A stretch of DNA of 33,012 nucleotides from an uncultured Bacteroidota bacterium (GTDB taxonomy: Bacteria > Bacteroidota > Bacteroidia > Bacteroidales > F082), in contig CAJVXP010000026.1 of NCBI GenBank assembly GCA_913009685.1, positions 1-33,012 on the forward strand. The letters are read 5' to 3'. The position numbers were made by a program, and so were the translations under genes. A model generated the notes under the pieces. It saw nothing but the letters and a program-made list of their open reading frames with translations, was not told the DNA's origin and searched no databases. The stretch's first letter is position 1, and the number at the start of each line of letters is the position of its first letter. This document shows, piece after piece, positions 3-24,577 of this stretch.

Positions 3-962
3 ACCAAATCCATCGAACGGGCTCAAAGGAAAGTAGAAGAGAACAACTTTGGCATCAGAAAGCGTTTGCTGGAATATGATGACATTATGAACTCACAACG
101 GGAGGTTATCTATAAAAAACGCCGGCACGCCCTCTTTGGCGACCGTCTTGCAGTAGATATTTCCAACATGATGTTTGACCTCTGTGAGCAGATTGTTACT
201 GAGAATCAGGAGAATAGTGACTTTAAGACTTTTGAGATGCAGCTCCTGAGGGTGCTCTCTACCGAATCGGTGGTTAATGAAAAAGAGTTTCTGTCGATGC
301 CTCCTGAAGAGATTACCGAAAAGCTTTTTACAAAGGTTTATAAATCATATCAGCAAAAGCGCGAACGCCTTATCCTGCAGACTTTTCCCGTAGTAAAGGA
401 TGTGTACGAAAACCAGTCACAATACGAAAATATTGCCATTCCTTTTTACGATGGGAAAAAACAGGTTCAGATTATCGCTAACCTGAAAAAAGCCGTCGAA
501 TCGGAGGGAAAAGAAATTGCCCTTGCTTTTGAAAAAGGGATCGTCCTCTCTACTATTGACGACGCATGGAAAGAGCAACTACGCGAAATGGACGACCTGA
601 AACAGTCTGTCCAGAACGCTTCTTACGAGCAAAAAGACCCGTTGTTGATTTATAAGTTTGAGTCGTTTAACCTTTTCAAACAGATGATCGAAAAAATCAA
701 CAACGAAGTGGTCTCATACCTTATCAGAGGAGATATTTACAATCCGAACCAGCAGGCATTCAGAGAAGCTAAAATCGACCGTGGTATTGACCGCTCGAAG
801 ATCCGGGAAGAACGTGGAGACTTGCTCTCGCAAGCGTATGCCGACACTCAGCAACACGGGAAGCCACAGCCTGTTAAAGTAGCCAAAAAGGTTGGGCGTA
901 ACGATCCCTGCCCCTGTGGCAGCGGAAAGAAATATAAAAACTGTTGTGGAAGAAATGCTTAA
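3..962 (+). CDS. secA: Protein translocase ATPase SecA, C-terminal part (5' end outside window)
   Basis: The reading frame is open from base 3, so the gene starts upstream of the window; about 319 C-terminal residues are present. SecA is the cytoplasmic ATPase that drives preproteins through the SecYEG channel. The visible part begins in the helical scaffold (RAQRKVEENNFGIRKRLLEYDD, split here as RAQRKVEENN then FGIRKRLLEYDD), which is strongly conserved in SecA, continues through the helical wing, and includes the conserved stretch IDDAWKEQLREMDDLKQ. The end carries the SEC-C zinc-binding motif, NDPCPCGSGKKYKNCCG, with its Cys ligands intact. That tail normally binds SecB and ribosomes. The stop codon TAA overlaps a likely promoter for the next gene, so secA probably does not share an operon with it. 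The family assignment is secure. Confidence 0.97.
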   Translation, partial: TKSIERAQRKVEENNFGIRKRLLEYDDIMNSQREVIYKKRRHALFGDRLAVDISNMMFDLCEQIVTENQENSDFKTFEMQLLRVLSTESVVNEKEFLSMPPEEITEKLFTKVYKSYQQKRERLILQTFPVVKDVYENQSQYENIAIPFYDGKKQVQIIANLKKAVESEGKEIALAFEKGIVLSTIDDAWKEQLREMDDLKQSVQNASYEQKDPLLIYKFESFNLFKQMIEKINNEVVSYLIRGDIYNPNQQAFREAKIDRGIDRSKIREERGDLLSQAYADTQQHGKPQPVKVAKKVGRNDPCPCGSGKKYKNCCGRNA

Positions 963-1439: not shown

Positions 1440-1753
1440 CTGAAAGAGTAGAATAGCTTATTGCTTGTCCCCTGTTGCCGGTTCTGCGTATAGTATGAGG
1501 ATGGGATGTGTGTGAGCCTGCGCTGAAGCTACGGCTCTCAGAAGCGAATAAGCCATCTCTCATCCAATTAGCCTGGTCATCAGTTGTTCTCGGATTTTCA
1601 AAAATTTATTTTATCTTTTTTCATCAGGCTCTGTCGGGTGAATAAATTTTTTTCTACATTTACCCCCATAAAGTCAGATACTTGAAAAAAGATTCACACA
1701 TAGCACTTCTTTCAGGAACTTCAGGGCGTAATCCACTGGGTTATAGCGTTGTT
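1440..1753. other. Intergenic region before the thr leader
   Basis: No gene is seen here. A small stem (GAGCC 1514-1518 with GGCTC 1533-1537) lies inside a weaker pairing (around 1499-1508 with 1553-1564) and could be a repeat remnant or a weak terminator for the gene at 990. An AT-rich stretch at 1600-1655 leads to TACATTTA (1655-1662), one base off the Bacteroidota -7 consensus. This is the best, but weak, candidate promoter for the threonine operon and would give a leader RNA of about 240 bases. Confidence 0.4.
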
Positions 1754-1792
1754 ATGTCTGCTTTTACCACCTCTACAACCTCAACCCCTTAG
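1754..1792 (+). CDS. Candidate threonine-rich leader peptide of the thr operon
   Basis: ATG to TAG encodes only 12 residues, MSAFTTSTTSTP; five are Thr and three Ser, with the Thr codons packed into 1766-1786. It lies 115 bases upstream of thrA and in a different frame from it. Its last codons and stop overlap the hairpin at 1783-1798. This is the arrangement of the enterobacterial thrL attenuator, where ribosome stalling at Thr codons chooses between alternative RNA folds. No Shine-Dalgarno is seen, which is normal in this phylum. Function is inferred from composition and position; a chance ORF in a CCTCAACCCC-type repeat remains possible. Confidence 0.5.
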   Translation: MSAFTTSTTSTP

Positions 1793-1836
1793 GGGGTTAC
1801 ATCTTTCATATTATCCCATGGGGGAACATTATCCCC
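1783..1836 (+). promoter_or_regulatory. Putative attenuator folds of the thr leader
   Basis: AACCCC (1783-1788) pairs with GGGGTT (1793-1798) across a 4-base loop and spans the leader stop codon. A second stem pairs GGGGA (1821-1825) with TCCCC (1832-1836) across ACATTA. ATTATCCC occurs twice (around 1810-1817 and 1828-1835), so the G-runs have alternative partners. Against a classical attenuator, there is no T-run after the second stem, so control, if real, might act on translation or through Rho. Confidence 0.4.
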
Positions 1837-1907: not shown

Positions 1908-4355
1908 ATGAAAGTCTTAAAATTCGGAGGCAGCTCAGTAGCCAACGCCGAAAACATAAAAAAAGTTATTGAAATCGTCATCAGAGAAAAAAATAACTGC
2001 CAATTGACCGTGGTGGCATCTGCCCTGGGCAAAGTTACTGACCAGCTTGAAGAAAGTGGTAAAATAGCAAGTCTTGGTGATGAGCGATACAAACAAATCC
2101 TGAAAGATATTGAAAGCGTCCATCTCAGCGTCATTGACACACTTTTCCCGCTGAAATACCAAAGTGAAATCAAAGCCGGGATAAAAATGATGATGAACGA
2201 ACTGGAAGATATCTGTCTCGGTATTTTCCTGTTACAGGAAATAAATCCAAAAACAGATGATCTGTTGTTGTCTTTCGGCGAACGGCTTTCGGGGCTGGTG
2301 CTTTCCAAAGCCCTGAATTATTATGGTGTCCGGATCCGTTTGCTCGATGCGCGCGAAATCATCCTCACCGACGAAACTTTCGGACATGCACAGGTAAATT
2401 TTGAGGAAACCGGGAAACGCTTTCAGCGACAGATAAACAACGTAAAAGAGCATGTTTTTGTTTCGGGATTTATTGCCTCTTCGGCAAATGGCAAACCGAC
2501 AACGCTGGGCCGCGGTGGTTCCGATTACACAGCAGCTGTCCTGGCGGCTTCCGTTGATGCTTCCGCATTGGAAATCTGGACAGATGTGGATGGCGTGATG
2601 ACTGCCGATCCGGCTTTTGTGGAAAGTGCACTTCCCCTGAAAAAACTGTCGTACAGTGAGCTTATGGAGATGTCTCATTTTGGCGCCAGGGTGGTTTTCC
2701 CGCCGAGTATCCAGCCTGTTATGAAAAAAGATATTCCGGTTTGGATAAAAAATACCTTTCATCCCGATGCTCCCGGAACACTCATCGACCGCAACGGAAC
2801 GCCTCATGGAAGCCTGGTAAAAGGACTCTCTCACATTGAAAGTATTGCTTTGCTGACACTTTCCGGCGGTGGATTAGTGGGTGTAACCGGAATTGCCGCC
2901 CGCCTTTTCTCGTGCCTGTCGCAGCAAAAAGTCAATGTCATATTTATTACTCAGGCTTCATCCGAACACTCCATTACGCTGGCCATCGACCCCTCGGATG
3001 TGGGGGAAGCCCGAAAAGCTATCGAACAGGAGTTTGAATCGGAAAGAAAACTGGCCATCGTTGATGCTTTGCAGGTCGAACAGGAACTTTCCATTATTGC
3101 GCTGGTGGGCGACAACATGAAATCATCGCTGGGACTGAGCGGGAGAGCTTTTGATGCCCTCGGAAAAAATGGCGTGAACATTCGTGCCATTGCCCAGGGT
3201 TCCTCCGAACGAAACGTATCCTTCGTGGTACTGAAAAAAGATGTTACCAAAGCGCTCAACGTGTTGCACGAACGGTTTTTTCTTGCCCGTTATAAAAAAG
3301 TACATGTTTTTATGGTGGGTGTTGGAAATGTGGGCGGAACGCTTTTGCAACAACTTAACGACCAGTACGATTATTTGAAAAAGGAATACGCACTGAAAAT
3401 AAAGGTGATAGCACTGGCCAATAGTCACCGGATGCTTTTCGATGAACGCTCTATCGATTTTAAGAACCGTGAAGAAAGGTTGCTGTCTGAAGGGGAGCCT
3501 ATGGACCCGGAATTGTTTCTCCGGAAAATGAAAGCACTTAACCTGCGAAACTCTATTTTTGTGGATAATACCGCGAGTGCCGAAATTGCCGGACTTTACG
3601 AAACGGTACTTAAAAACAGTATCAGTGTCGTTGCTTCTAACAAAATAGCCTCTTCCGCCTCTTATGTGACTTATAAACTATTGAATGATACTGCTTTAGC
3701 TATGAAGAAGAAATATCTGTACGAAACAAATGTGGGCGCCGGATTGCCTGTGCTGAAAACCATTGGCGACATGATAAAAAGCGGCGACAAGATTCTGCGA
3801 ATCAAAGCGGTGTTGTCGGGCAGTCTGAATTTCATTTTTAATCATTTTACGGAAGGTGTTGCGTTTTCGGATGTGGTGGCACAGGCCCGGCTGGAAGGCT
3901 ATACCGAACCCGACCCGCGCATTGACCTGAGCGGAAAAGATGTGATGCGGAAGATTCTTATCCTGGCCCGCGAAAGCGGGTATCCGCTGGAACCGGAAGA
4001 GGTGGTAATCAATCCGTTTATGCCCGAAAGCTTGATGAACCTGCCTTCTGTTGAGGCGTTTACGGAAGCGTTGAGCCGATATGACGACTATTTTGAAAAA
4101 TTACGGAAAGAGGCAGCCGGGGCAGGGAAAAAATTGAGGTATGTGGCCGAATTCGATAACGGAAAAGCTATGGTGGGTCTGCAAATGGCTGATGCTTCGC
4201 AACCTTATTTCCAACTCGATGGAAAAGACAATATAGTGCTTATCTATTCGCAACGTTACAACGAACAGCCATTAGTCATTAAAGGGGCAGGGGCAGGGGC
4301 GGCCGTAACGGCCTCCGGCGTTTTTGCAGACATTATTTCTATTGTAAATCAATAA
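1908..4355 (+). CDS. thrA: Bifunctional aspartokinase / homoserine dehydrogenase
   Basis: 815 residues from the ATG at 1908. It catalyses the first step (aspartate to aspartyl phosphate) and the third (aspartate semialdehyde to homoserine) of threonine/methionine synthesis in the cytoplasm. The kinase domain starts with KFGGSSV at 5-11 and has GRGGSDYTA near 201. Two ACT-type regulatory modules follow at about 310-460 (GLVGVTGIAARLFSCLSQQ and the NVRAIAQGSSERN-like NIRAIAQGSSE), as expected for threonine feedback inhibition. The dehydrogenase begins with the NAD(P) loop GVGNVGG near 469-475, and NVGAGLPVLKTI is also typical. The frame is open upstream to 1749, but that extension contains a Lys run and no conserved sequence, so the ATG directly before KVLKFGG is chosen. 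thrB follows 10 bases later. Confidence 0.96.
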   Translation: MKVLKFGGSSVANAENIKKVIEIVIREKNNCQLTVVASALGKVTDQLEESGKIASLGDERYKQILKDIESVHLSVIDTLFPLKYQSEIKAGIKMMMNELEDICLGIFLLQEINPKTDDLLLSFGERLSGLVLSKALNYYGVRIRLLDAREIILTDETFGHAQVNFEETGKRFQRQINNVKEHVFVSGFIASSANGKPTTLGRGGSDYTAAVLAASVDASALEIWTDVDGVMTADPAFVESALPLKKLSYSELMEMSHFGARVVFPPSIQPVMKKDIPVWIKNTFHPDAPGTLIDRNGTPHGSLVKGLSHIESIALLTLSGGGLVGVTGIAARLFSCLSQQKVNVIFITQASSEHSITLAIDPSDVGEARKAIEQEFESERKLAIVDALQVEQELSIIALVGDNMKSSLGLSGRAFDALGKNGVNIRAIAQGSSERNVSFVVLKKDVTKALNVLHERFFLARYKKVHVFMVGVGNVGGTLLQQLNDQYDYLKKEYALKIKVIALANSHRMLFDERSIDFKNREERLLSEGEPMDPELFLRKMKALNLRNSIFVDNTASAEIAGLYETVLKNSISVVASNKIASSASYVTYKLLNDTALAMKKKYLYETNVGAGLPVLKTIGDMIKSGDKILRIKAVLSGSLNFIFNHFTEGVAFSDVVAQARLEGYTEPDPRIDLSGKDVMRKILILARESGYPLEPEEVVINPFMPESLMNLPSVEAFTEALSRYDDYFEKLRKEAAGAGKKLRYVAEFDNGKAMVGLQMADASQPYFQLDGKDNIVLIYSQRYNEQPLVIKGAGAGAAVTASGVFADIISIVNQ

Positions 4356-4365
4356 ACTGACGAAC

Positions 4366-5301
4366 ATGAATGAACTTAAAATTTTTTCTCCGGCTACGGT
4401 TGCCAATGTCTCCTGTGCTTTTGATATTCTGGGTTTTGCTGTGGAGAAGGCCGGCGACCGGATGACTTTCCGGAAAACAGCTGAAAAAGGTATCCGCATT
4501 GTGATGAAAAACTACCGGGAACTCCCCACCGAGCCGGAGAAGAATGTGGCAGGGGTGGTGGCGTTGGCCATGGTCGAAAAGAGGCAGCCCGGTTTTGGCA
4601 TCCTCATCGAAATGGAAAAAGGTATTCTTCCGGGAAGCGGCATGGGATCCAGCGGCGCCAGCGCCGGCGGCGCAGCTTTTGGTGTCAACAAACTGCTGGA
4701 CGAACCGTTTGGAAAAACAGAACTGGTACAGTTTGCCATGCTGGGCGAAGCATTGGCTTCGGGGGTAGCGCACGCCGATAATGTGGCGCCCAATTTGTTT
4801 GGCGGTTTTACGCTGGTACGCAGCACCCGGCCCCTTGATGTGATTCCCCTGCATACCCCGGAAAGGCTCTCGGTGAGCCTGATTCACCCGTTGATTGAAG
4901 TGAAAACCAAAAACGCACGGAATATCCTGAAGAAATCACTTCTGTTAAAAGATGCCGTGATCCAGTGGGGCAATGTGGCCGGACTTGTCAGCGGACTTTT
5001 TATGGAAGATTTCGACCTGATAGCCCGCTCGATGCATGATGGTATTGTGGAGCCCGTCCGCTCATTACTTATTCCGATGTTTGATGAACTCAAACAGGCT
5101 GCTCTGGATGCGGGCGCTCTCGGATGTAGTATTTCCGGATCGGGGCCTTCTGTTTTTGCCCTTTCGGCCGATTTGGCTACAGCCGGAGAGGTAACCGAAG
5201 CCATGCGGAAAATTTATGCAGAAACGGATGTTCCGTTCGAAACGTACACCTCCGGTATTAACAAAAAGGGTATCCGTATTCTGAATGAAATAAATGATTG
5301 A
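4366..5301 (+). CDS. thrB: Homoserine kinase
   Basis: 311 residues, the usual length for this GHMP-family kinase, which phosphorylates homoserine before threonine synthase acts. The ATP-binding GHMP motif is LPGSGMGSSGASAGGAA at about 88-104. SPATVANVSCAFDILGFA at the N-terminus and SISGSGPSVFAL near 255 are the other two conserved family blocks. The gene starts 10 bases after thrA and ends 22 bases before thrC, so all three should be on one mRNA. The ATG at 4366 gives an alignment-length N-terminus with no extension. Confidence 0.96.
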   Translation: MNELKIFSPATVANVSCAFDILGFAVEKAGDRMTFRKTAEKGIRIVMKNYRELPTEPEKNVAGVVALAMVEKRQPGFGILIEMEKGILPGSGMGSSGASAGGAAFGVNKLLDEPFGKTELVQFAMLGEALASGVAHADNVAPNLFGGFTLVRSTRPLDVIPLHTPERLSVSLIHPLIEVKTKNARNILKKSLLLKDAVIQWGNVAGLVSGLFMEDFDLIARSMHDGIVEPVRSLLIPMFDELKQAALDAGALGCSISGSGPSVFALSADLATAGEVTEAMRKIYAETDVPFETYTSGINKKGIRILNEIND

Positions 5302-5323: not shown

Positions 5324-6613
5324 ATGAAGTATTACAGTACAAACCATAAATCGGAAAATGTATCTTTTAAAGAAGCTGTGCTAAAAAGTATGGCCGGAGA
5401 CAAAGGATTGTATTTCCCGGAGAAAATTCCGGCTCTGCCCGGCTCTTTTTTTAATGCACTTCCCGGAATGTCGCTGAGCGAAATCGGCTTTCATTTCCTG
5501 AAACCTTATGTCACCGGCGCATTATCGGATGCCGAACTGAATGCCATCATGAAAGATGTTTTTTCTTTTGATATTCCGCTGGTTGAAGTGGAACCGGACA
5601 AATATGCTTTAGAGCTTTTCCACGGACCTACCCTGGCTTTTAAGGATGTGGGTGCACGGACGCTGGCGCGTTTTCTGTCCAAATTCTCAACAACCCATAA
5701 AACAACCATTTTGGTGGCTACTTCGGGCGATACGGGCAGTGCCGTAGCACGGGGTTTCTTCGATATGCCCAATATCGATGTAGTGGTATTGTATCCGAAA
5801 AACAAAGTCAGCAAACTTCAGGAAAAACAATTTACCACTTTGGGGAAAAACATCACAGCATTGGAGGTGAACGGAAACTTTGATGACTGTCAGCGGATGG
5901 TAAAAGCTGCTTTCGCTGATGAGGAATTGAAAAGGCGGATGCATTTGTCCTCTGCCAATTCCATCAACATTGCGCGGTTGCTGCCCCAGGCTATTTACTA
6001 TTTTTACGCTTACGGCCAGCTTAAAAACAGAGAGAAACCGGTGGTTATTTCCGTTCCGACCGGAAACCTCGGTAACCTTACTGCCGGTTTGCTGGCCAAA
6101 AAATCAGGCCTTCCCGTGGAGCGTTTTGTGGCTGCTGCCAACCGGAACAATGTCTTTCAGGAATATCTCGAAACCGGCACGTTCCGGCCACGGGCTTCAG
6201 TTTCCACGCTTTCCAATGCCATGGATGTAGGGAATCCAAGTAATCTCATCCGTATTCAGGAACTTTATGACCTCTCGTTTGAAGCAGCACGGAAGGATAT
6301 CAGTCCGTACCATTTCTCGGATGAGGAGACCTGCCGGACTATAGCAGCCGTTTACAAACGATCTCAATATATTTTAGACCCGCATGGCGCAGTAGCTTAC
6401 CTCGGATTGTCTTCTTACATGAAAGAAAAAAATGTTTCGGGAATATTTCTGGAAACGGCACATCCGGCAAAATTTTATCAAACTGTGGAACAGGAAATTC
6501 CTGTGAAAGTGGAGATACCCCAGCGGCTGGCAGAAAGTCTGGGACGACCCAAACAAACTGTGGAAATCGGCTGTCAGCCGGAAGATTTAAAAAATTTCCT
6601 TTTGGAACGATAA
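5324..6613 (+). CDS. thrC: Threonine synthase
   Basis: 429 residues. A PLP enzyme that converts O-phosphohomoserine to threonine, the last step of the pathway. The N-terminal YYSTNHKSENVSFKEAV is typical of the long bacterial/fungal type of threonine synthase. The PLP lysine is K107 in HGPTLAFKDVG. SGDTGSAVARGF follows at about 130-141 and the PLP-phosphate loop VPTGNLGNLTAG at about 246-257. Last gene of thrABC; no convincing terminator is seen in the 79 bases before the next promoter. Confidence 0.96.
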   Translation: MKYYSTNHKSENVSFKEAVLKSMAGDKGLYFPEKIPALPGSFFNALPGMSLSEIGFHFLKPYVTGALSDAELNAIMKDVFSFDIPLVEVEPDKYALELFHGPTLAFKDVGARTLARFLSKFSTTHKTTILVATSGDTGSAVARGFFDMPNIDVVVLYPKNKVSKLQEKQFTTLGKNITALEVNGNFDDCQRMVKAAFADEELKRRMHLSSANSINIARLLPQAIYYFYAYGQLKNREKPVVISVPTGNLGNLTAGLLAKKSGLPVERFVAAANRNNVFQEYLETGTFRPRASVSTLSNAMDVGNPSNLIRIQELYDLSFEAARKDISPYHFSDEETCRTIAAVYKRSQYILDPHGAVAYLGLSSYMKEKNVSGIFLETAHPAKFYQTVEQEIPVKVEIPQRLAESLGRPKQTVEIGCQPEDLKNFLLER

Positions 6614-6700: not shown

Positions 6701-6737
6701 TCATCTTGTTAAATCTGTGGGAAACGGAATAAATTTC

Positions 6738-7925
6738 ATGAGAAAAAATTCGAAATTATCTTTCCTGATTTTATGGTCATTGGCTGTTTTTGTAGTCTGG
6801 CCTTTCCAGTCGGCGAAAAGCCAGCTTCTATGTACCATTACATCGAGCGCTCCCTCGCCTGTGTGCTATAATGCTGATTTTATGTTGTCTGTACAGGCTC
6901 AGAATGGTCTGAAATATAAATGGTCAACCGGCGATACCACAGCTTCTATTACAGTAAAAATAACACAGCCCACTGATTTTACGGTTACTGTTACTGATCC
7001 TGCATTGGGAGCTGTATGTACTAGTCAGCCTTTTCACATGGAGGTGCGGCCAAAAATAAATATCAGCTTTAAACAATTACAGCTTACCTGTACCGATGCC
7101 AGCCTGGATATTGGCAATACGGCGCAGGTGAAAGCTACCGCTTCCGGAGGATATGCTCCGGCGGAGTATCAATATTTCTGGGATGTGAAGCCCATTCAGA
7201 TATCTCCCGGCGATCGTTCCATCGCCATCGGTTTGAGTGCACATCAATATTATTCTATCAGAGTAACCGACCCGAATGGCTGTGCAGCCGCCGGCACGTT
7301 TTATGCCCGCGCTTATCCCAATCCGGTTGTGAAAATCAAGGCGTCTCCTGATACGGCTTATATTCAAAATCCACACATCACTTTCTCCTTCGAGAACCTC
7401 TCAAAAGATACCATCCAAATTTCAAACAGTTATTGGGAATTTGATAAAGACCAGGCCTCGTATCCCCAGGCGGAGGTTATGCATACTTTTGATAAAGTGG
7501 GTACTTATGCCGCTTTTTTAACGGTTTATAATCAACAGGGTTGTGATACTTTGTACACACATCAGGTAGATATTCTTCCCGTGGATTTGTTTATTCCCAA
7601 TGTGTTTACGCCCAACGGCGATGGCTATAACGATTATTTTGTTATCAAGGCAAAAGATGCATCACAGGGGACTCAAAACGGACTTAAATCGGCAGCTGCC
7701 ACAGATTACAAGCCGTTGAATGCTTATTATGAAAAGACCCGGCTGGTCATTTTTAACCGTTTTGGAAGAAAAGTTTTCGAATCGGATAATTACCATAATG
7801 ACTGGGATGGCGGGAACTTGCCGGATGGTACTTACTTTTATGTGTTAAAATGTCAGGGATTTAAAGATAAAAAGGTAGTCTATAAAGGTTCTGTTACTAT
7901 CTTTGCAAGCAAAAAAGGAAGGTAA
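6738..7925 (+). CDS. Secreted PKD-type protein with gliding-motility (type B) C-terminal sorting domain
   Basis: 395 residues. An N-terminal signal peptide (KNSKLSFLILWSLAVFVVW, cleavage probably after SAKS) sends it to the periplasm. The C-terminal ~95 residues (VDLFIPNVFTPNGDGYNDYF, then IFNRFGRKVFES, NDWDGGNLPDGTYFYVL, YKGSVTIF) are the CHU_C/gliding-motility-associated domain that marks cargo of the type IX secretion system. The middle has Ig/PKD-like modules: WSTGDTTASITVKITQPTDF near 48-68, and a PKD-like segment near 220-280 (YWEFDKD, VMHTFDKVGTYAAFLTVYN). The exact role is unknown; surface display or adhesion is the usual inference. The stop lies 1 base before the next gene's ATG, so the two are co-transcribed. 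Confidence 0.87.
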   Translation: MRKNSKLSFLILWSLAVFVVWPFQSAKSQLLCTITSSAPSPVCYNADFMLSVQAQNGLKYKWSTGDTTASITVKITQPTDFTVTVTDPALGAVCTSQPFHMEVRPKINISFKQLQLTCTDASLDIGNTAQVKATASGGYAPAEYQYFWDVKPIQISPGDRSIAIGLSAHQYYSIRVTDPNGCAAAGTFYARAYPNPVVKIKASPDTAYIQNPHITFSFENLSKDTIQISNSYWEFDKDQASYPQAEVMHTFDKVGTYAAFLTVYNQQGCDTLYTHQVDILPVDLFIPNVFTPNGDGYNDYFVIKAKDASQGTQNGLKSAAATDYKPLNAYYEKTRLVIFNRFGRKVFESDNYHNDWDGGNLPDGTYFYVLKCQGFKDKKVVYKGSVTIFASKKGR

Positions 7926-24302: not shown

Positions 24303-24386
24303 TGCCCAAGATAGGACTCGAACCTACACGACCTTGCGATCACTAGTCCCTGAAACTAGCGCGTCTACCAATTCCGCCACTTGGGC
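24303..24386 (-). tRNA. tRNA-Leu (anticodon CAG)
   Basis: The minus strand starts GCCCAAG and ends CTTGGGC plus discriminator A, a 7-bp acceptor stem. Anticodon stem CTAGT/ACTAG encloses the 7-base loop TTCAGGG, giving anticodon CAG. It has the long variable arm of a leucine tRNA and GTTCGAGTCC in the T arm. CCA is not encoded. Second gene of the tRNA pair. Confidence 0.95.
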
Positions 24387-24492: not shown

Positions 24493-24577
24493 TGCCCAGA
24501 ACAAGAATCGAACTTGCACTCCCAAAACGGGAACATGGCCCTCAACCATGCGCGTCTACCATTTCCGCCATCTGGGC
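24493..24577 (-). tRNA. tRNA-Leu (anticodon GAG)
   Basis: Minus strand GCCCAGA at the 5' end pairs with TCTGGGC at the 3' end, plus discriminator A. Anticodon stem CATGG/CCATG encloses TTGAGGG, giving anticodon GAG. A long variable arm (TTCCCGTTTTGGGAG) and a normal T arm fit leucine. CCA is incomplete. First gene of the pair, directly behind the promoter at 24590-24622. Confidence 0.95.

Follow-up and report, generated by a model that had tools for sequence, protein, structure and literature searches.

Upstream of the threonine biosynthesis operon thrABC of an uncultured Bacteroidota bacterium (Bacteroidales; F082), the 33,012-nucleotide stretch analyzed here (contig CAJVXP010000026.1 of assembly GCA_913009685.1, hereafter the window) carries a short threonine (Thr)-rich reading frame whose stop codon is enclosed by a hairpin. 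Based on comparative sequence analysis, this element probably functions in cis as a ribosome-mediated attenuation leader of the thrABC operon. Comparison of related loci reveals a conserved frame, Thr codons, a covarying hairpin at the stop codon, a conserved sequence tract, an association with thrA, and usually no strong GC-rich terminator. Transcription and translation of the leader, the sign of its response, and the step that switches expression off are inferred. Ribosome-mediated attenuation is itself a known principle, and the element is a variant of it marked by the stop-codon hairpin, the conserved tract, and, in most cases, no strong terminator.

The initial annotation of the window had described a 12-codon open reading frame (ORF) with five Thr and three Ser residues located 115 bases before thrA, with a perfect 6-bp stem overlapping its end. 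Both statements are correct. The ORF, MSAFTTSTTSTP*, is read at positions 1754–1792 with its TAG stop codon at 1790–1792 and the ATG of thrA at 1908, and the arms AACCCC (1783–1788) and GGGGTT (1793–1798) pair perfectly over 6 bp around a UUAG loop, thereby enclosing the stop codon. The assignment of the downstream genes to thrA, thrB, and thrC was likewise confirmed by profile scores. The fold of the single window sequence is unremarkable (z −1.70, equalled or bettered by 10 of 200 shuffles), and the case therefore rests on comparison.

For this comparison, the 500 nt preceding thrA were read at 107 loci comprising 9 from the genus, 69 from the order (84 thrA matches including the window, with 69 besides the window read), and 29 from the wider phylum (201 genomes with a thrA match, with 29 besides the window read). 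Full-length thrA is encoded in 9 of the 12 same-genus genomes, and the other eight copies are 60%–79% identical to that of the window. Conservation in relatives had been suggested as a check on the element, and a Thr-rich frame ending in or just after the hairpin ACCCC(C)T[TA][AG]GGGGG is present in all nine genus loci, while the combination of frame and hairpin recurs in many other Bacteroidota. In all nine, the frame remains open back to a TTG (five loci) or an ATG (four loci) that lies 17–36 nt after a promoter-like box (19 nt in five loci), yielding leaders of 32–39 aa, with the starts being our choice among the in-frame TTG and ATG codons. Because the frame is open to this point in every genus locus, we regard 1754 as internal, and the leader probably starts at TTG 1682 and spans 36 codons. 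Thus, the Thr-rich frame first described is real, but its start was probably misplaced.

Among the 59 leaders scored, 51 contain at least three Thr in the last eight codons, as compared with 0 of 59 in either other frame, and the mean is 4.4 Thr in the leader frame versus 0.07 in each other frame. This restriction to a single frame supports the Thr-dependent, ribosome-mediated attenuation that had been proposed from the window. All four Thr codons are used (ACC 111, ACA 70, ACT 65, and ACG 16), Ile codons often adjoin them, and the Thr/Ile codons are confined to one frame with varying third positions. When the best short ORF was scored as Thr per window of 8, 40 of the 107 forward strands reached at least 5 and no reverse strand did (0 of 107). 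A short ORF rich in the amino acid that the operon produces is found before its biosynthetic genes. A Chitinophagaceae metagenome-assembled genome (MAG; locus L036) also possesses a leader with a hairpin before its thrA relative. The contigs of L037, L039, L040, and L041 encode close thrA relatives as well (41%–46% identity), and in these MAGs, labelled Chlamydiae (L037 and L041) and Thermoanaerobaculia (L039 and L040), no leader plus hairpin was found.

In 67 of the 107 thrA loci, a stem of 5 bp or more (hairpin 1) sits where the leader frame ends, namely in 9/9 genus, 32/69 order, and 26/29 wider phylum loci; each hairpin was folded individually, and 18 of the 67 stems were picked by eye. 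Within each clade hairpin 1 hardly varies, whereas between clades its outer bases change and its pairing is kept (AACCCC/GGGGUU, UACCCC/GGGGUA, CACCCC/GGGGUG, CAACCC/GGGUUG, and GACCCUG/CAGGGUU). In the broad alignment, double changes appear in just one of the four pairs, as loop length differs between clades. Approximately ten bases 3' of hairpin 1, the alignment of 36 loci contains the conserved tract ACATATMATCC, followed by small clade-specific hairpins. Structured RNA that overlaps the leader ORF or lies after it is conserved. Upstream of the Thr codons, folding is somewhat stronger than in shuffles (mean z −1.25; 20 of 39 below −1), and 13 f124 family members have a hairpin in common there, with both sides changed in five of its six pairs. 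A similar fold (hairpin 0) is predicted in several genus members including the window (1726–1747), and was not recovered in the genus alignment.

The initial annotation had also drawn attention to G-runs with more than one possible C-rich partner. The runs (1792–1796 and 1820–1824) and their possible partners (1785–1788, 1815–1817, and 1833–1836) are present and alternative pairings can be drawn in the window, but none of them is consistently kept across clades. A conserved pairing between the G-arm of hairpin 1 and the tract was considered and could not be established; by eye, it makes about seven of eight pairs in the L115 type and is poor in L109, L125, L131, and the window.

Model searches tie hairpin 1 and the tract to thrA. 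A covariance model of the two (R1) was trained on 36 tract-bearing loci, leaving out L015, L010, L011, and order loci without a clear tract. At E ≤ 0.1, R1 has a single match in each of 35 genomes out of 296 from the phylum, a lower bound given the strict filters of the scan; 27 of the 35 matches are training loci and eight are new. All 35 precede thrA in the same orientation, 34 of them no more than 250 nt away, and the remaining match (G535) lies 683 nt from thrA, behind a Thr-rich leader with further sequence between. In the genus, R1 recovered seven training loci at E below 0.001; its other matches have E values of 0.68 to 9.9, and a weak one near a second aspartate kinase (L170) falls inside a coding region. 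A dispersed repeat, which had been named as an outcome that would undermine the element, is ruled out, as the motif CCCCTTRGGGGG occurs once in the 2.11-Mb assembly of the window and R1 also finds a single place there. No Rfam family exceeded its gathering score in the window leader, with two tRNAs being the only matches in the window, and lenient searches returned nothing related. The best lenient match, to RT-17 on the minus strand (23.8 bits, E 0.017), was taken as chance when set against a gathering score of 40.4. The thr leader thus matches no known RNA family model among those searched. A frameshift fusion was also considered, since the frame from TTG 1749 is open into thrA in the window, and was rejected because hairpin-to-thrA distances are not constant modulo 3 (111, 110, 209, 108, 106, and 125 nt in L003–L008).

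We envisage the following sequence of events. Transcription would be expected to start near position 1667, downstream of the promoter-like box, which we take to resemble the Bacteroidota −7 box TAnnTTTG. The transcript would first encode the leader peptide, with Thr predominating in its final codons (Thr and Ile in other families). When charged tRNA-Thr is sufficient, the ribosome would reach the stop codon inside hairpin 1 and leave; hairpin 1 could then close, and transcription would end before thrA. Under Thr shortage, a ribosome stalled at the Thr codons would sit beside or on top of the 5' arm of hairpin 1, a different RNA fold would form, and transcription would continue into thrABC.

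The initial annotation had noted the lack of a T-run after the last stem and suggested a mechanism other than classical termination. The observation was slightly too strong, as GCTTATTT lies directly 3' of hairpin 2 (arms 1821–1825 and 1832–1836), but this tail is interrupted (CTTATTT) and a T-rich tail is not kept in L004–L008 or in family f142. Terminators were sought as a GC hairpin (three GC pairs required) with a T-rich stretch after it; the search covered 39 thr elements, 19 histidine (His) leaders, and, from other Bacteroidota, 3 Thr leaders that looked classical by eye. With a cut-off of 22 that was chosen after the scores were seen, a terminator was scored in 3/39 thr elements, as compared with 13/19 His leaders and 3/3 classical thr leaders (scores of 29–33); any score at all was obtained for 11/39, 16/19, and 3/3, respectively. 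Hairpin 2 of the window scores 19.4, below this cut-off, and across the elements a strong intrinsic terminator composed of a GC hairpin and a U-run is usually missing between leader and thrA.

The His leaders serve as a contrast from the same organisms. At least four His in 8 were found at 19 of 30 hisG loci, and the genome of the window itself contains such a leader at its his operon (L185; G000:C14, upstream of 365–826, minus strand), MHHHHLHPHPLR*, with the terminator AAACCCATCTGAGTAAATCGGATGGGTTT and a T-run. With this textbook terminator, the genome appears to control his by classical attenuation and to rely on a different, or a far weaker, off-step for thr. The suggested departure from classical termination gains from the comparison: within the phylum and this genome, His leaders mostly possess classical terminators. 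The His leaders L176, L186, L188, and L192 of family f142, located before hisG, have no or very weak terminator matches, and their spacers are pyrimidine-rich and G-poor by eye.

It could be argued that the element is a classical thrL-type attenuator that works through a weak intrinsic terminator alone, formed by hairpin 2 or by an AU-rich stem downstream of the tract. The scored hairpin 2 of the window and its GCTTATTT tail are consistent with this, as are longer hairpins in L007 and L008 that end at AATTTTT or ATTTTTC (25.4 and 27.0). An AU stem with U5–U8 is seen by eye in family f124, and AU-only stems followed by a U-run are seen by eye in L123, L124, L125, and L132 and went unscored because the search asks for three GC pairs. 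Thr leaders with classical terminators also exist elsewhere in the phylum (L022, L025, and L074; the leader of L025 reads MILTTGTTFTTTTTTTGNGKGRFCIK). The low share of thr elements that reach the cut-off, when compared with the His and classical thr leaders, and the loss of the T-rich tail in L004–L008 and f142 argue against this explanation, which we consider unlikely.

We propose, tentatively, that thr control in Bacteroidota represents a distinct attenuator class that needs no intrinsic terminator, in which the stop-codon hairpin and the ACAUAUMAUCC tract act together as the switch, with transcription stopped by Rho or through pausing. Our best guess for the off-step, on mixed evidence, is that Rho may act on the spacer between hairpin 1 and thrA. 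Rho is encoded, with its RNA-binding domain recognized at 120.9 bits in a 667-aa frame. The spacer is rich in C and poor in G in f142 (C/G ratio of 2.61 in 9 loci versus 0.75 in 3 control genes) and, to a mild degree, in the genus (1.15 in 9 loci versus 0.70 in 7 control genes); the ratio is 1.51 in f122 (4 loci, without control genes). Ranked second, and somewhat doubtful, is a weak or unusual intrinsic terminator, and a step at the level of pausing or translation is ranked last.

Several observations weigh against attenuation of this kind. The spacer is not C-rich in f124 (C/G of 1.16 in 13 loci versus 1.46 in 6 control genes), and control genes are few throughout (7, 3, and 6 in the genus, f142, and f124). 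The AU-only stems with a U-run described above may be weak intrinsic terminators. Hairpin 1 is absent in 40 of the 107 thrA loci, and the genus loci L010 and L011, which were outside the training set and have a degenerate tract, were not found by R1. A competing pairing (2:3) consistent across clades was sought and not found, and the region 3' of hairpin 1 does not fold above shuffles (mean z −0.52; 11 of 39 below −1). Moreover, five of the nine genus leaders would start with TTG, and codon-position constraint is absent in the genus loci for the residues before the Thr run. This absence would be expected if only an open frame and Thr codons matter, and it equally lends no support.

Alternatively, the leader may control translation of thrA, with the position of the ribosome altering access to the start codon or allowing reinitiation at thrA. 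Most members lack a strong terminator, which fits such control. In the accessible text of PMC4833913, the leader-to-gene distance in Bacteroidetes peaks at 11–14 bp, and leaders at this distance are linked to reinitiation. The spacer here, at 115 nt, lies far above that range, the hairpin-to-thrA distance varies widely between loci (64 to 221 nt), and no conserved pairing reaches the A-rich start of thrA, making translational control improbable. A protein-binding operator at the conserved DNA, with the short ORF as an incidental feature, is very improbable. The core ACCCCTTAGGGGGT is indeed almost a palindrome with little variation inside clades, and the tract is conserved in sequence, but the Thr/Ile codons keep to one frame with variable third positions, the stem changes between clades with its pairing kept, and the promoter-like box lies about 120 nt upstream of the core.

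If ribosome-mediated attenuation without an intrinsic terminator is indeed used by Bacteroidota, what stops RNA polymerase becomes directly testable, with the textbook His attenuators of the same genomes as an internal control. If the proposed class is real, the ilvD leaders of f135 and f136 and the His leaders of f142, terminator-less by eye, would work likewise. Ile/Val/Leu-rich leaders were observed before ilvD at L203, L207, L210, and L224 (f135), at L211, L213, L214, L215, L218, and L222 (f136), and at L217 (f134). By eye, these f134–f136 leaders are followed by long-range pairing, e.g., GTCAATCCC...GGGATTGGC, without a clear U-run terminator, and it is possible that they constitute a second terminator-less attenuator. 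The ilvD leaders L227 and L231 (f124) and L228 and L232 (f142) carry classical terminators by eye.

The features of the thr leader and operon are listed in Table 1.

Table 1. Positions in the window of the thr leader features and the thrABC genes.
Feature	Position	Strand	Basis
Promoter-like box TACATTTA	1655..1662	+	TAC[AT]TTTACC upstream of leader in 9/9 genus loci
Full leader ORF (probable), 36 codons, TTG start: LKKDSHIALLSGTSGRNPLGYSVVMSAFTTSTTSTP*	1682..1792	+	Frame open to TTG/ATG after box in 9/9 genus loci
Hairpin 0 inside leader ORF, possible pause hairpin	1726..1747	+	Predicted fold; covarying counterpart in f124
12-codon ORF MSAFTTSTTSTP*	1754..1792	+	Taken as 3' part of leader with Thr codons; Thr enrichment in own frame only
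Hairpin 1, AACCCC-UUAG-GGGGUU, leader stop codon at loop	1783..1798	+	Fold; stem of at least 5 bp in 67/107 thrA loci
Conserved tract CATATTATCC (consensus ACATATMATCC)	1807..1816	+	Alignment of 36 loci; covariance model R1
Hairpin 2, GGGGA-ACAUUA-UCCCC, then GCUUAUUU	1821..1836	+	Predicted fold; weak terminator-like score of 19.4
thrA, bifunctional aspartate kinase/homoserine dehydrogenase	1908..4355	+	NF006959, 1001.8 bits
thrB, homoserine kinase	4366..5301	+	371 bits
thrC, threonine synthase	5324..6613	+	294.4 bits

Elsewhere in the window, the C-terminal part of SecA is encoded near the contig start (66–962), a T9SS type B sorting-domain protein downstream of thrC (6717–7925), and two tRNAs on the minus strand (24303–24386 and 24493–24577). 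The genome also contains other aspartate kinase loci. A second aspartate kinase (G000:C41, 5617–6957) is preceded by a SAM riboswitch (RF00162, 72.4 bits; L235 280–392, minus strand), and a second homoserine dehydrogenase is encoded on the same contig. By eye, a hairpin with a T-run, AACCCGGTTATGAAAATGACCGGGTTTTTT, lies just before a third aspartate kinase (L237; G000:C6, upstream of 17564), with a short Lys/Arg-containing ORF upstream of it.

Leader-peptide attenuation has already been published for Flavobacterium psychrophilum (PMC9723704), which belongs to the same phylum and has transcribed, structured leaders at amino-acid biosynthesis operons; the accessible text of that report names no operon, sequence, or structure, and overlap with the thr element is possible. 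According to the part of a 2010 report that was available (PMC2965389), leader-peptide systems had been unshown beyond Proteobacteria and Actinobacteria before its own Firmicutes case. A study by Lopatovskaya et al. (2010), cited in PMC4833913 with a title that concerns amino-acid operon attenuation, may have anticipated some of what is described here. Our search of the open-access literature found no paper on a thrA leader in Bacteroidota. Bacteroid-trp RNA (RF01692), as listed in PMC2864571, is likewise a cis-regulatory candidate before amino-acid genes in Bacteroidetes, but the thr element does not match it.

The His leaders of L185 and other Bacteroidota likewise place a run of the regulated amino acid before a biosynthetic gene and, unlike the thr element, most of those scored possess a strong classical terminator, that of the same genome included. 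Leader-peptide attenuation is the standard example of transcription–translation coupling, and its mechanism is known almost entirely from Proteobacteria. In E. coli, the thrL leader peptide, rich in Thr and Ile codons, precedes thrABC, and hairpins overlap or follow the leader. The element described here resembles thrL in its Thr/Ile-rich leader before thrABC and in its overlapping or following hairpins, and differs from thrL in that the ACATATMATCC tract follows, a strong GC hairpin with a U-run is usually missing, and no Rfam family matches.
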